DNA from: an uncultured Clostridia bacterium
Lineage (GTDB): Bacteria > Bacillota > Clostridia > Oscillospirales > Ruminococcaceae
Assembly: GCA_947627045.1 (NCBI GenBank)
Contig: CANQUM010000012.1
Location: forward strand, 1-52,235
Reading direction: 5' to 3'
Length of the DNA: 52,235 nt
Below the pieces are notes generated by a model. It saw only the letters and a list, made by a program, of their open reading frames with translations, was not told the DNA's origin and ran no database searches. The position numbers were made by a program, and so were the translations under genes. Below are positions 11,302 through 38,977 of the stretch, piece by piece; within the stretch, counting starts at the first letter, position 1; every line of letters starts with the position of its first letter.

Positions 11302-11350
11302 CATCATACAATATAATAGAAATGTTGACATATATAATGACAAATATATG

Positions 11351-11522
11351 CCGATAGCACTCCATCATACTTTATGATGACAATTACAAGCCTTTTAAGC
11401 GTGCAATCAGAAATAAGCTTTCCCAACACTTAATTCTTCGGCAGCATCACCTTTCACACTTTCGGCTCGGGAAGCCTTTAAATTATGAAAATGCTAATAA
11501 TTTCAGCCGCACCTCTATCGTT
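11351..11522 (-). ncRNA. Lysine riboswitch (L-box)
   Basis: Read on the minus strand, the conserved L-box blocks appear in order: CGATAGAGGTGCGG, GAAAGGTGATGCTGCCGAAG, TGGGAAAGC, and finally GGAGTGCTATCG. CGATAG and CTATCG close helix P1. The order and wording match the B. subtilis lysC leader. It precedes asd-dapA-dapB, the expected target. Lysine binding should favour the terminator at 11278-11301 and switch the operon off. Confidence 0.93.
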
Positions 11523-11531
11523 TCTACAATT

Positions 11532-14242: not shown

Positions 14243-15418
<1,176 letters not shown>

Positions 15419-21388: not shown

Positions 21389-21394
21389 AACTTT

Positions 21395-21629
21395 AAACAT
21401 TATGACTGAGAGAGTAGGTTTGTGTACAGCTTTCAGAGAGGGAATGTCTGCTGAAAAATTCCTAAGCGAGATCAGACTGAAGTTCACTCACGAGTGGTTC
21501 TGCCGAAGTTTTTATTGTAAGCAGAAACGGATTTTGAAACCGTTAAAATTCAAAGGAGTGTTGGCTCTTTTTAACCTTTAGGTGGTATAGCAAGATACAG
21601 TCTTGTCCTGATAGGGATAAGGCTTTTTT
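21395..21629 (+). ncRNA. T-box leader specific for tRNA-Phe
   Basis: The leader has the T-box order. First is a stem I with the AGAGAGTAGG bulge and the terminal hairpin GGAAT/ATTCC (21451-21472). The specifier region GAAGTTCACTC has a Phe codon TTC at 21483-21485. The T-box sequence AGGTGGTATAGC is at 21580-21591. Last is a terminator stem GTCTTGTCC/GGATAAGGC (21600-21623) and six T residues. Uncharged tRNA-Phe should bind and allow read-through into pheST. The specifier and target agree. Confidence 0.9.
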
Positions 21630-28589: not shown

Positions 28590-29006
28590 TTGCTGACTAA
28601 TTCCAGAAGGCGCTCCTCTTCGACTGTAAAAAAGGATATATTTTTTGTTTTTGTCGCAATACTTGCCGGATTTTTAATAACAATGCTGGTTCTATTGTTT
28701 TTCTCGTTTATACTTACAAAAATCGATGCACCTGATAAAATTGTTAAGCTGCTCTCAACTGTTGCATTGGGTGTTGGAACCTACTTCGGAGGGTATATTT
28801 GTTCAAGACGAAAGCATAACAGAGGAATATACAGAGGTGCATTGTGCGGTTTTATAATGTTCTGTGCAATAGTAGTTGCAGGCGCAATATTTGCAAACAC
28901 TGTATTGTCATTTAGCGTAACTTCAAAGTTTATTCTTACACTTGTATGCGGCGCAATTGGAGGGATTGTCGGCGCTAATTCAAATTCAAGATTCAAGAGA
29001 TATTGA
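28590..29006 (+). CDS. TIGR04086-type small membrane protein
   Basis: The 138 residues have four predicted membrane helices: about 18-43, a second glycine-rich helix about 55-70 ending YFGGYICSRRKHNRG, 80-102, and 112-130 with a final GGIVGAN. The pattern and location between yajC and the SCIFF gene match TIGR04086; its function is not known. The start is TTG 28590 behind AGGAGGG. Its stop codon lies inside the -35 box of the SCIFF promoter. Confidence 0.8.
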   Translation: MLTNSRRRSSSTVKKDIFFVFVAILAGFLITMLVLLFFSFILTKIDAPDKIVKLLSTVALGVGTYFGGYICSRRKHNRGIYRGALCGFIMFCAIVVAGAIFANTVLSFSVTSKFILTLVCGAIGGIVGANSNSRFKRY

Positions 29007-29031
29007 CATATTTTTTTTAGTGTGTTATACT
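29003..29031 (+). promoter_or_regulatory. Promoter for the SCIFF precursor gene
   Basis: TTGACA (29003-29008), 17 bases and TATACT (29026-29031) form a near-consensus promoter. The TGA stop of the upstream gene (29004-29006) is part of the -35 box. Confidence 0.8.
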
Positions 29032-29059: not shown

Positions 29060-29203
29060 ATGAAACATATCAAGACTATCAATAAAACAAATTTAAAGAA
29101 AACTGCGTCAAAAGGCGGATGCGGTAACTGTCAGGCTTCATGCCAGTCAGCATGCAAGACTTCATGCACCGTTGCAAATCAAAAATGTGAAAAGGACGCA
29201 TAG
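29060..29203 (+). CDS. scfA: SCIFF ribosomal peptide precursor (six cysteines in forty-five)
   Basis: This 47-residue peptide gene starts at ATG 29060 behind TTTGGAGG. The peptide opens MKHIKTINK and has exactly six cysteines, at 21, 24, 28, 32, 36 and 43, in the conserved SCIFF pattern. In the characterised family member from Thermoanaerobacter the radical-SAM maturase joins Cys32 to Thr37 by a thioether; this peptide has Cys32 and Thr37 in the same positions. SCIFF is almost universal in Clostridia, and its biological role is still unclear. The maturase follows after a hairpin. Confidence 0.95.
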   Translation: MKHIKTINKTNLKKTASKGGCGNCQASCQSACKTSCTVANQKCEKDA

Positions 29204-29229
29204 TTTTTTATAAAATTATGATTAGTTTG

Positions 29230-29257
29230 AGGGACATAGCCTGTCCCTTTAATTTTT
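29230..29257 (+). terminator. Hairpin between SCIFF precursor and maturase genes
   Basis: AGGGACA (29230-29236) pairs with TGTCCCT (29242-29248), followed by TTAATTTTT. It is probably a partial terminator that keeps maturase mRNA lower than precursor mRNA. Confidence 0.7.
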
Positions 29258-29273
29258 GTATGCTGAAATTTCA

Positions 29274-29305
29274 AAAGGAGGTATGCTCTTCAAGGGGCAT
29301 AAATT
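29274..29305 (+). promoter_or_regulatory. Hairpin between Shine-Dalgarno and scfB start
   Basis: AAAGGAGG (29274-29281) is followed at once by TATGCTC (29282-29288), loop TTCAAG, GGGCATA (29295-29301), a 7-bp stem with one G-U pair. Then AATT and the ATG at 29306. The 3' arm contains a second, weaker site (AAGGGG, 29292-29297) that the stem would hide. Confidence 0.55.
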
Positions 29306-30679
29306 ATGATTCACTGTTTTAAACTAAAGGGTTTTAATATTGTTTTGGACGTTCATACGGGCGGAGTGCATATAGTTGATGATATTACATATGAAATACT
29401 TGAAAATATATCGTTGCCGCTTGATGAAAATTGCAAAAATGAAGTTACAAAAAAGTTGTCAGGGAAATACTCATTTAAAGACATCGAAGAATGTTTTGAT
29501 GAAATCCTTGAACTGTATAATGATGGTATTCTTTTCAGTAATGACGATTATGAGCAGTTTGCAGATTATGCGGTTGCGTCGCCTATAAAGGCGATGTGTC
29601 TGCATATTGCTCATGACTGCAATTTAAGATGTAAATATTGCTTTGCGTCAACTGGTGATTTCGGTGTGGGAAGAAAGCTGATGGATCTTGATACAGGCAA
29701 GGCTGCAATTGACTTTTTGCTAGAAAAATCGGGAAACAGGAAGAATCTTGAACTTGATTTTTTCGGTGGCGAGCCGCTTATGAATTTTGATGTTGTAAAA
29801 GAAATTGTTAAGTATGCAAGAGGGAAGGAAAAGCAATACGGAAAGACGTTTCGATTCACTATCACTACTAACGGATTACTGCTTACCGATGATAAGATTG
29901 ATTTTATCAACAAGGAAATGTCAAATGTAGTTTTGTCAATAGACGGTCGAAAAGAAGTCAATGACAGGATGAGAGTTCGTGTTGACGGCAGTGGAAGCTA
30001 TGATACAATTATTGACAAGTATAAAACACTTGTTTCAAAGCGGGATAAGAATAAGGATTATTACGTAAGAGGGACATACACAAAATACAATCTTGACTTT
30101 TCAAATGACGTTATGCACCTTTATGAGTGCGGATTTGATCAGGTATCAGTTGAGCCGGTTATGGGCAGTGAAACAGAGCCGTATGCCATTACTGAAGATG
30201 ATCTTGAAAAGATAAGCGAGGAATATGATATTCTAGTTGACAAGCTTTCAGAGATAAAAGAAAAAGGCGGGTTTTGCAACTTCTTTCATTTTATGCTTGA
30301 TTTAAACCAGGGACCTTGTGCTATAAAACGACTGAGAGGCTGCGGAAGCGGCAACGAATATGTAGCGGTAACTCCTGACGGTGATATTTATCCCTGCCAT
30401 CAGTTTGTAGGCATTGAGAGTTTTAAAATGGGTAATCTTCATGATAAAACTTTTAATATGGATATAAAAAATATGTTCGCAAAGACTCATATTTACGCAA
30501 AGGACGATTGTAGGAACTGCTGGGCGAAGTTTTATTGCAGCGGCGGCTGTAATGCAAACAACTATCTTTATGAAGGAAATATACTAAAGGCACACAAATT
30601 GTCCTGCAAAATTCAAAGGAAAAGACTTGAATGCGCTATCTTGATGAGTATTAAAAAAGAGATGGAAAAGCAAATTTAG
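29306..30679 (+). CDS. scfB: Radical SAM/SPASM SCIFF maturase
   Basis: This iron-sulfur enzyme forms the thioether crosslink in the SCIFF peptide. Its 457 residues begin with a PqqD-like leader-binding (RRE) region (about 1-90). The radical SAM core follows with CNLRCKYC (Cys105, 109, 112), FFGGEPL and TTNG. The SPASM part carries many cysteines for auxiliary 4Fe-4S clusters (PCAIKRLRGCGSGNEY, YPCHQF, CRNCWAKFYCSGGC, and Cys near the end). The order scfA-scfB is the standard family layout. Its start region contains an unusual hairpin. Confidence 0.95.
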   Translation: MIHCFKLKGFNIVLDVHTGGVHIVDDITYEILENISLPLDENCKNEVTKKLSGKYSFKDIEECFDEILELYNDGILFSNDDYEQFADYAVASPIKAMCLHIAHDCNLRCKYCFASTGDFGVGRKLMDLDTGKAAIDFLLEKSGNRKNLELDFFGGEPLMNFDVVKEIVKYARGKEKQYGKTFRFTITTNGLLLTDDKIDFINKEMSNVVLSIDGRKEVNDRMRVRVDGSGSYDTIIDKYKTLVSKRDKNKDYYVRGTYTKYNLDFSNDVMHLYECGFDQVSVEPVMGSETEPYAITEDDLEKISEEYDILVDKLSEIKEKGGFCNFFHFMLDLNQGPCAIKRLRGCGSGNEYVAVTPDGDIYPCHQFVGIESFKMGNLHDKTFNMDIKNMFAKTHIYAKDDCRNCWAKFYCSGGCNANNYLYEGNILKAHKLSCKIQRKRLECAILMSIKKEMEKQI

Positions 30680-30814: not shown

Positions 30815-31744
30815 ATGTCAGAACAAAAAAGCAAATTGGACAAGGCTATGAAACTTTTGACACCTAAACTTGCACAGCCATTTTATAATATGTCTAACAA
30901 AAAACGATTTAGTATTAATGAGATACGTCTCAGAAATAAAAGGTATTTGACAATTGTTATCGGCGAAGATGAATTTTATATCTTATCTGACGGAAGTATA
31001 TCAAGGGATTGTAAGAATGTCTTGAAAATAACAGAAGAGGATATAGATTACACATACAAAACAGCACTTAGGAATACAATATACAGCTTTAAGCGTGAGA
31101 TTTCTTTAGGTTACATAATTACTGAGGGCGGAAACAGAGTAGGATTTTGCGGAACAGCTGTTTTAGATGATAGAGGCAAAAATGATACGCTTAAAAATAT
31201 TTCGGGAATAAGCATAAGAATAGCCAGAGAGGTTTTTGGAGCGGCAGATGACTTGATTAATAAGCTGGGTCTTTTGGAAGACGGCATAAAAAATGTTTTG
31301 ATTCTTGGTTCTCCGTCAAGCGGTAAGACGACTTTGCTGAGAGATCTTTGCAGACAGCTTGGAATGAGAAAGAGAATTTCTCTTATAGATGAAAAAAATG
31401 AAATATCGGCGACTTTTAAATCTGCCGCACAGAATGATATAGGAAATTTCACTGATGTGTTTGATTCATATACAAAATACTATGGCATTTTGTCAGCTGT
31501 TAAAATAATGTCGCCTCAGCTGATTATTTGCGATGAAATAGGTACAAAAGACGATTTAGAGGCACTTGATTATGCAGTCAATTCAGGTGTAAAAATTATA
31601 GCTACTATGCACTCAAGCAGTATTGACGATGCCTTCAAAAAGCCGTATATGAAAGAATTATTTTCAAGAAAAGCTTTTGATTATATTGTTTTGCTTGGAA
31701 CAGGGACGGATCTAGGAAAGATATTCAGTATAAGAAAAATCTAG
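30815..31744 (+). CDS. spoIIIAA: Stage III sporulation protein AA (ATPase)
   Basis: This is the mother-cell ATPase of the SpoIIIA-SpoIIQ channel, related to secretion ATPases. It has 309 residues, the usual length. Walker A is GSPSSGKTT (about 165-173), the Walker B region is LIICDEIG (about 231-238), and TMHSSS follows. ATG 30815 has AGAGGAAGG upstream. It is the first gene of a complete eight-gene operon and is expected to act during engulfment to keep the forespore active. Confidence 0.96.
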   Translation: MSEQKSKLDKAMKLLTPKLAQPFYNMSNKKRFSINEIRLRNKRYLTIVIGEDEFYILSDGSISRDCKNVLKITEEDIDYTYKTALRNTIYSFKREISLGYIITEGGNRVGFCGTAVLDDRGKNDTLKNISGISIRIAREVFGAADDLINKLGLLEDGIKNVLILGSPSSGKTTLLRDLCRQLGMRKRISLIDEKNEISATFKSAAQNDIGNFTDVFDSYTKYYGILSAVKIMSPQLIICDEIGTKDDLEALDYAVNSGVKIIATMHSSSIDDAFKKPYMKELFSRKAFDYIVLLGTGTDLGKIFSIRKI

Positions 31745-31777
31745 GAGGAAACGCTCAACTTGAGCCAAATTACAGCA
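31743..31777 (+). promoter_or_regulatory. Palindrome between Shine-Dalgarno and spoIIIAB start
   Basis: AGGAGG (31743-31748) is followed by GCTCAA-C-TTGAGC (31753-31765), which can fold as GCTC/GAGC. Two starts are possible: TTG 31760 inside the palindrome, 11 bases after the site, or ATG 31778 beyond it. The latter would repeat the layout at scfB and ispA. Confidence 0.45.
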
Positions 31778-32266
31778 ATGAAAATAATAGGAATAATGCT
31801 TGTTTTCTTGTCATCAGCGTTTTTGGGGTTTAATATGTCTAAAAGATATAAAAGGCGTATTCAGATATTAGAAGAGATAAATGAACTTATTATCAGCATA
31901 AAAATTATTATTGAGGCAGAGAGCCCGACAGTTGACGAGCTTTTTTATTCACTTGCCGGTCAAAAAAAGCTGGATAACTTTTTTATATCAAAAACCGCCT
32001 TTTTATCTCCAGACTATAAAAGAAATATTACTTCAGAATGTAAAGGCTGCAGCTTTCTTAAAGAAGATGACAAGCGGTTGTTTATAGGATTCATAAATGA
32101 ACTCGGCACTGCTAATCTGGAGGGACAGATTTCAATTATAAACGGTTACATAAAACAGTTAGAAAATAAAATTGCAAAACTCTTAAGTGAGCAAAACTCA
32201 AAATGCAGAATGTATAACTCATTTGGCGTTTTAACAGGTGCATTTATTTCGATAATTCTGTCATAG
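31760..32266 (+). CDS. spoIIIAB: Stage III sporulation protein AB
   Basis: This is a GspF-like membrane component of the SpoIIIA complex. The 168 residues begin with a membrane helix (IIGIMLVFLSSAFLGFNMS), then a helical cytoplasmic part and a final hydrophobic helix (FGVLTGAFISIILS), the family layout. The listed start is TTG 31760; ATG 31778, six codons later, gives an equally good N-terminus, and the hairpin context may favour it. It lies 15 bases after spoIIIAA. Confidence 0.92.
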   Translation: MSQITAMKIIGIMLVFLSSAFLGFNMSKRYKRRIQILEEINELIISIKIIIEAESPTVDELFYSLAGQKKLDNFFISKTAFLSPDYKRNITSECKGCSFLKEDDKRLFIGFINELGTANLEGQISIINGYIKQLENKIAKLLSEQNSKCRMYNSFGVLTGAFISIILS

Positions 32267-38758: not shown

Positions 38759-38944
38759 ATGACATTTGAAGAGTCATTGGATAAACTGAACACAATTGTT
38801 TCAGAGCTTGAATCGGGCAATTTATCTTTAGAGGAGTCTCTTGACAAGTTTAAAGAAGGCATTGTGCTTTCTGGAGAATGCAAAAAAAAGCTTGATGAAG
38901 CAAAGCTTGTGGTTGAGACTGTTGATAAAAATATTACTGATTAG
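38759..38944 (+). CDS. xseB: Exodeoxyribonuclease VII small subunit
   Basis: The 61 residues match the family: TFEESLDKLNTIVSELESGNLSLEESLDKFKEG and a helical end. Several copies bind each XseA chain. It lies 13 bases after xseA, and ATG 38759 follows a GAGGAG site. Confidence 0.95.
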   Translation: MTFEESLDKLNTIVSELESGNLSLEESLDKFKEGIVLSGECKKKLDEAKLVVETVDKNITD

Positions 38945-38977
38945 GAGGATTGCTCTCAACAGAGCAAGGTAATAATA
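38943..38977 (+). promoter_or_regulatory. Hairpin between Shine-Dalgarno and ispA start
   Basis: AGGAGG (38943-38948) overlaps the xseB stop. It is followed by a perfect 7-bp stem TTGCTCT (38950-38956), loop CAAC, AGAGCAA (38961-38967), then ten bases to the ATG at 38978. A second weak site AAGG (38966-38969) straddles the stem end. Confidence 0.55.

Follow-up and report, generated by a model that had tools for sequence, protein, structure and literature searches.

In one clade of gut bacteria allied to Ruminococcus, dozens of genes carry a hairpin of conserved sequence between the Shine-Dalgarno (SD) sequence and the start codon. We consider it likely, with a probability of roughly 0.64, that the arrangement constitutes a split and structured ribosome-binding site whose folded hairpin would bridge the distance to a remote SD. 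At the level of sequence, this reading is supported by the architecture of the element, its excess over chance, its covarying stem, its confinement to one clade and the constancy of the distance left outside the hairpin in three of four gene families.

The scfB leader and related hairpins in the window

The 52,235-nt stretch of DNA that was analysed as a whole (the window) carries the SCIFF precursor gene scfA (29060-29203; NCBIfam TIGR03973, 82 bits, above the cut-off) and the SCIFF maturase gene scfB (29306..30679, plus strand; NCBIfam TIGR03974, 692 bits, above the cut-off). The SD of scfB, AAAGGAGG (29274..29281, plus strand), whose GGAGG is retained in 10/10 scfB orthologues of the clade, abuts without a gap the hairpin TATGCTCT-TCAA-GGGGCATA (29282..29301, plus strand), which scores 36.4 bits with our model R1 and is followed by the spacer AATT (29302..29305, plus strand) and the ATG at 29306. 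A preliminary description of this DNA had placed a hairpin between the SD and the scfB ATG, and both the sequence and the predicted fold bear this out; its 7-bp stem stands as a stem, with the length corrected to 8 bp (29282-29289 with 29294-29301, including two G-U pairs, around the loop TCAA). If all 8 pairs form, the spacing outside the hairpin is 4 nt. The folding energy of the 35-nt stretch is -9.1 kcal/mol (z = -3.33), and 1 of 200 shuffles was equally stable. The whole 96-nt leader showed no unusual structure (z = 0.50), and the probability of the stem pairs was ~0.48 when folded over 100 nt. An Rfam scan of the window returned three matches, none of them at the scfB hairpin, where no family reaches its gathering score. 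Matches above that score were found for a T-box leader (21393-21613, plus strand) and a lysine riboswitch (11347-11525, minus strand). Taken alone, a single hairpin at scfB would prove little.

The intergenic region between scfA and scfB also contains a terminator-like hairpin, GAGGGACA..TGTCCCTT, with a T-rich tail (29229-29249), which probably lets the precursor exceed the maturase. The scfB leaders of the nine related loci L060-L068 and of several more distant loci show similar stems (GGGACA..TGTCCC). Just 5′ of scfA lies a promoter-like TTGACA-17-TATACT (29003-29031) with 11/12 matches and a TG before the second hexamer.

Hairpins had likewise been reported at spoIIIAB and ispA, and both are present with GCTC stems. 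The element before spoIIIAB (31743..31777, plus strand) consists of AGGAGG, which overlaps the spoIIIAA stop codon, and the core GCTCAACTTGAGC (31753-31765), with the ATG at 31778. Before ispA, encoding farnesyl diphosphate synthase, it comprises AGGAGG and the core GCTCTCAACAGAGC (38943..38977, plus strand; core 38952-38965; ATG 38978; R1 36.4 bits). A fourth hairpin of the window lies in the leader of tgt (14250..14281, plus strand; Pfam TGT), where CGGAGG precedes the stem TACCC/GGGTA (14258-14272; ACCC/GGGT) and the ATG at 14282. Its distances are the same as in the element, and the tgt leader is a probable diverged copy.

Recurrence, architecture and covariation of the element

A search of the scfB leader against its own genome found a second site, 89% alike over 35 nt, before a cysteine desulfurase-family gene. 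The pattern AGGAGGN{0,6}GCTCN{3,9}GRGC occurred 27 times in the 2.1 Mb searched and the reversed pattern, used as control, 0 times. Twenty-five of the 27 matches precede an open reading frame (ORF) of at least 50 codons, and in 22 of these the first such start comes 23-30 nt after AGGAGG. The remaining two sit within long open frames, so no population of matches away from starts is seen.

We also counted leaders independently of the stem, scoring AGGAGG as short-spaced at up to 15 nt from ATG and as long-spaced at 18-36 nt, and the spacer as folded at -5 kcal/mol or better. A 452-kb sample picked without regard to the element (379 called ORFs) contained 30 short and 13 long AGGAGG leaders (43 in all); 11 of the 13 long spacers were folded (11/43 of all such leaders), where shuffling the spacers gives an expectation of 0.82. 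The preliminary description had set such an excess over shuffled sequence as a test, and it is found. Extrapolation from these 11 gives about 50 copies per genome. L060-L068 (188 kb) contained 23 short and 19 long leaders, 13 of them folded (13/42), with 0.56 expected by shuffling. This GCUC-independent count covered, outside the clade, G001 (34 short, 2 long, 1 folded; 1/36), L069-L073 (11 short, 0 long, 0 folded; 0/11) and the 1.1 Mb of L074-L139 (86 short, 4 long, 1 folded; 1/90). Plain AGGAGG leaders in the genome of the window hold the SD at 5-13 nt from ATG, with a peak at 7-8 nt.

To describe the element, 163 loci (L003-L029, L140-L275) were reduced to 139 distinct candidates, some of which are not elements; one locus yielded none. 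The copy set took in 80 further R1 matches, leaving aside the weakest listed and the unlisted ones. It includes 127 copies with a core and an AUG, 118 of them with a single AUG; a set of 130 copies was defined by another stem rule. The layout is AGGAGG, 3 nt, GCUC..GAGC, ~11 nt and AUG. The consensus reads as an A-rich stretch, AGGAGG, WWT, GCUC, six loop bases like YUWAMR, GAGC, an AUAG-like A/U-rich segment and AUG, the constancy of GCTC being partly a matter of ascertainment, since R1 was seeded with it. The core begins 3 nt past AGGAGG in 106/118 copies and is 14 nt long in 98/118. The total distance between SD and AUG is 26-30 nt in 103/118 copies (mode 29) and 23-34 nt in 117/118, further than the 5-13 nt of plain AGGAGG leaders, and a stable hairpin lies wholly inside this interval. 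The expectation that removing the hairpin would restore an ordinary spacing holds across copies: 14-15 nt remain outside the 4-bp core stem in 70/118, and 10-12 nt, a working distance, outside the full stem in 66/130.

Families in which the hairpin changes in length bear on the same point, and three of four keep the outside distance constant. It is 14 nt in all ten copies of a 148-aa protein family (cores 14-15), 15 nt in 3/3 copies of a family that we take to be ABC-like (cores 12-13) and 14 nt in 2/2 copies of a presumably ispG-like family (cores 20 and 14); at ftsQ (11, 16 and 15 nt) the constancy is broken. A family presumed to be RpiR-like, with cores of 14 and 15, has 14-16 nt outside. 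Regressing total distance on core length over the pooled copies gave a slope of 0.79 (se 0.18), which fell to 0.32 (se 0.26) once two long hairpins and one outlier were removed; the pooled regression thus backs bridging only via the two long hairpins.

The stem covaries. Among 84 distinct aligned copies, in an alignment fitted to the model and hence leaning towards it, 90.8% of cells pair versus 86.8% after shuffling, both sides change at 5/7 pairs, and covariation is 0.217 versus 0.159 in shuffled alignments; 0/500 shuffles reach any of these three values. The count of further pair types in this alignment was not significant (51/500 shuffles), and slid structures reached at most 58.4% pairing. 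Of the 96 copies that form a gapless class, 68 have a Watson-Crick pair below the loop (shuffled mean 43.4, maximum 61 of 5000) and 76 have one at the first pair outside the core (shuffled mean 66.5, maximum 76). The outermost pair shows no covariation (28/96 Watson-Crick versus a shuffled mean of 28.9) and is unpaired in 35/84 aligned copies. Core pairs are swapped on both sides in three families: pyrG of G002 has ACTC/GAGT, ftsQ of L252 has GTTC/GAAC, and L260 has ACTC/GAGT, where relatives have GCTC/GAGC. In several species the scfB stem is ATGCTC/GAGCAT; L062 and L064 have ACGCTC/GAGCGT there, and L066 has a mismatched ACGCTC/GAGCAT. This pattern of substitution indicates that the stem is under selection, and the conservation and compensatory changes among relatives that the preliminary description had set as a test are both found.

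The 127 copies, one of which (L180) belongs to the outgroup species G010, fall into 51 gene families, 30 of them multi-copy; each of the ten clade species contributes a single copy to the 148-aa family. Names based on profiles include FtsQ, RNase J, TGT, ATP synthase B, phosphatidate cytidylyltransferase, farnesyl diphosphate synthase, SpoIIIAB and GalU, several of them with scores under the cut-offs of those families. Because so many unrelated genes, dozens in all, carry the element, the special role first proposed for it at scfB, in relation to the precursor, is not supported.

Distribution and origin

Within a genus of 15 species, R1 matches numbered at least 23-41 per genome in ten species and 0-2 in the other five; the best 150 of 1004-1581 first-look candidates were scored in each genome, so the copy numbers are lower bounds. 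Pattern counts in the same genus were 17-30 in ten genomes and 0-4 in five, and an unrooted tree of the genes that we take to be pyrG and hisD splits the same ten from the five by a long branch (support 1.000). The loci and the genomes are not independent sets, since L060, L061, L062, L065, L066 and L067 are G005, G012, G011, G004, G014 and G002, respectively, and L069, L070, L071 and L072 are G007, G006, G010 and G013.

Under stricter filters, R1 found matches in 3/148 genomes of the family. Two belong to the clade; in the third, G456, the match is likely a plain SD followed 8 nt later by an ATG that lies within the supposed loop. In a survey of 398 genomes of the phylum, where the genome of the window is the sole member of its genus, it had 22 matches versus 0 reversed; the largest other excesses noticed were 7 versus 1 (G109), 16 versus 10 (G249) and 6 versus 1 (G129). 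None of the other genomes resembles it in this pattern. Because pattern and R1 both depend on GCUC, neither would detect hairpin sites built on other stems elsewhere. Ruminococcus bicirculans stands further away (71% in ScfB). A phage origin or use was also considered and rejected. We saw no sign of phage use among 14 exact matches in viral contigs: 12 of them have no ATG 18-36 nt after AGGAGG, and of the other two, one (L323) has an ATG with a 3-codon frame and one (L321) an ATG at 33 nt with a 54-codon frame.

Orthologous leaders suggest how the element arose. The hairpin is found at scfB in 10/10 clade sequences (the window and L060-L068), at pyrG in 9/9 readable clade leaders and at hisD in 8/9 (G004 lacks it), versus 0/5 outgroup sequences at each gene. 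Outgroup leaders of scfB and pyrG show a plain SD with ordinary spacing, which at scfB (L069-L073) is AAGGAG 8 nt before ATG in 5/5. Presence in the clade alone, together with plain outgroup leaders, points to the hairpin being derived at scfB, pyrG and hisD. At other genes its occurrence is uneven. The ispA hairpin is present in 6/10 clade sequences (absent in L062, L064, L066 and L067); that of spoIIIAB can be made out clearly in the window, L060 and L061 and less well in L063 and L068, with none evident in the remaining five. The spoIIIAB leaders of L062 and L064 no longer have an upstream SD; what stands before ATG there is CTC..GAGGGTG, of which GAGGGTG could now act as the SD.

A gene for a 58-aa ribbon-helix-helix-like protein (HicB and RHH_1 score just under the Pfam cut-offs) is preceded by an SD and a hairpin both in the outgroup (three species: G007, G010 and G013) and in six clade species, in which the stem sequence differs; the loci on both sides are L178, L179, L180 and L360-L368. 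The last 35 nt of these nine leaders fold at -6.3 to -7.3 kcal/mol, and those of 20 listed paralogues at -3.4 kcal/mol or weaker. Its presence on both sides of the split indicates that the hairpin at this gene predates the expansion.

Modes of action and relation to known systems

In the course of evolution, the hairpin has come to lie between an SD and an AUG that outgroup leaders hold in plain form, and it is found at many genes. In the proposed mechanism, the strong SD would pair with the 3′ end of 16S rRNA; the short hairpin, starting 0-3 nt past the SD, would remain folded while the 30S subunit binds; and the ~10-12 unpaired nt outside the stem would place AUG in the P site despite a linear SD distance of ~23-34 nt. 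The ribosome would thus use the upstream SD across a folded hairpin, and we infer that the element acts constitutively rather than as a switch. A role coupled to the ribosome fits best because the distances to both SD and AUG are set, because plain orthologous leaders hold the SD at an ordinary distance and because the same arrangement is established in phage T4. In predicted folds in context, the median unpaired value was 0.467 for the SD and 0.462 for AUG. The value for the core stem itself was 0.934. That SD and AUG are predicted to be paired about half the time argues against certainty of such a role.

The T4 precedent answers the earlier statement that no named element of this form is known. 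According to passages of a review (PMC3014915), which attributes the 'accommodated' split ribosome-binding sites of T4 genes 25 and 38 to Nivinskas (1999) and to Malys and Nivinskas (2009), a hairpin cuts the spacing between SD and AUG from 27 to 11 nt in gene 25 and from 22 to 5 nt in gene 38, and weakening it lowers initiation. As in those genes, a hairpin between SD and AUG would here turn an over-long spacing into a working one, and it occurs in close relatives but not in those further away. In contrast to the single phage genes of T4, whose function was tested experimentally, the clade element is known from sequence and spans 51 bacterial gene families with a shared GCUC/GAGC core and fixed placement. 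The split ribosome-binding site of Escherichia coli thrS (PMC3936740) likewise has a structured leader, the parts of the ribosome site being separate; there the structure appears to lie upstream of the SD, whereas the clade hairpin lies between SD and AUG. In the passage of PMC4631060 that refers to it, the T4 work is merely cited, and the word Ruminococcus does not occur in the passages of two RNA-discovery papers (PMC11109978, PMC6429828). The principle is already known. A genome-wide, clade-specific family of such sites in bacterial genes, conserved in sequence, appeared neither among the best-ranked matches in the open-access literature nor in Rfam, and may be new.

In SD-sequestering hairpins, thermometers and translational riboswitches, the SD itself is paired. 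The clade element shares with them a short RNA structure in the initiation region. Unlike them, it leaves the SD outside the conserved, covarying stem, with pairing elsewhere predicted about half the time. A bistable switch between the hairpin and pairing of the SD with the 5′ arm was rejected: the median energy of the latter is -3.5 kcal/mol versus -7.3 kcal/mol for the hairpin, which is the more stable in 114/118 copies. A backward-SD control gave -3.8 kcal/mol and is weak because GGAG is still present in it.

The conservation of the core, the loop and the upstream A stretch exceeds what bridging needs, which leaves room for a binding factor. In the strongest alternative, which we regard as rather unlikely, a clade-specific protein or small RNA grips GCUC/GAGC beside the SD and thereby represses or activates translation across a large regulon. 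Conservation of the core and loop extends to their sequence besides their structure, A is enriched 10-11 nt upstream of the SD (A at position -11 in 95/130 copies versus 7/30 plain SD leaders), the element is confined to one clade, and its oldest copy precedes the ribbon-helix-helix-like gene. However, the named genes are functionally mixed, a repressor has no need of fixed distances to both SD and AUG, and in three families core pairs are exchanged on both sides. We suggest, tentatively and with little more confidence than in a factor alone, that AGGAGG and the GCUC hairpin at a fixed distance form a composite initiation signal, read as a unit by the clade's ribosomes or by a clade-specific factor, which the ancestor of the genus had at the one ribbon-helix-helix-like gene and which was taken up by ~50 genes in the ancestor of the ten species.

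The close likeness of the scfB and cysteine desulfurase-family copies, and the likeness among copies upstream of the SD, would also be expected of a dispersed DNA repeat that spread by copying and happens to hold an SD, its hairpin being functionless. We find this improbable, given that 25 of the 27 genomic matches stand before an ORF and the other two in long open frames, that paired changes between orthologues preserve the stem, and that the 148-aa family has the element in all ten clade species. Lower still we place the switch suggested in the preliminary description, in which the 3′ arm of the stem conceals a second SD and the choice of site depends on whether the stem is open. The scfB 3′ arm does contain AAGGGG, GGAG occurs in the 3′ arm of 58/127 copies, and the spoIIIAB leaders of L062 and L064 offer an SD-like 3′ arm without the upstream SD. 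An SD-like 3′ arm (AAGGGG, AAGGAG or AAGGGC) is nevertheless found in just 4/10 scfB orthologues and AGGAG in 24/127 3′ arms, the base that would complete the second SD covaries with its partner (C-G to U-A), and GAGC lies ~11 nt from AUG, beyond the 7-8-nt peak of plain SDs. As no second SD is conserved, the buried site is not upheld and such a switch is very unlikely as a general function. An intrinsic terminator or RNA-stability hairpin is hardly credible: a scan flags 29282-29301 as terminator-like, yet the tail AATTATGATT has no T run directly after the stem, the consensus tail is A/U-mixed up to AUG, and fixed distances to SD and AUG would not be needed.

Few rules of bacterial translation are as firm as the spacing between SD and AUG, which is also written into gene finders; these may misplace starts in such genomes. 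Dozens of genes of the clade break this rule in the linear sequence and appear to keep it in the folded RNA. As close relatives hold the plain form at the same genes, they provide a natural panel of paired leaders with which to test how the 30S subunit accommodates structure in the mRNA path and how ribosomes find start codons. The element is also a case of an RNA element growing common within a genome and, if the composite signal proves true, one lineage would have rewired translation initiation at many housekeeping genes.
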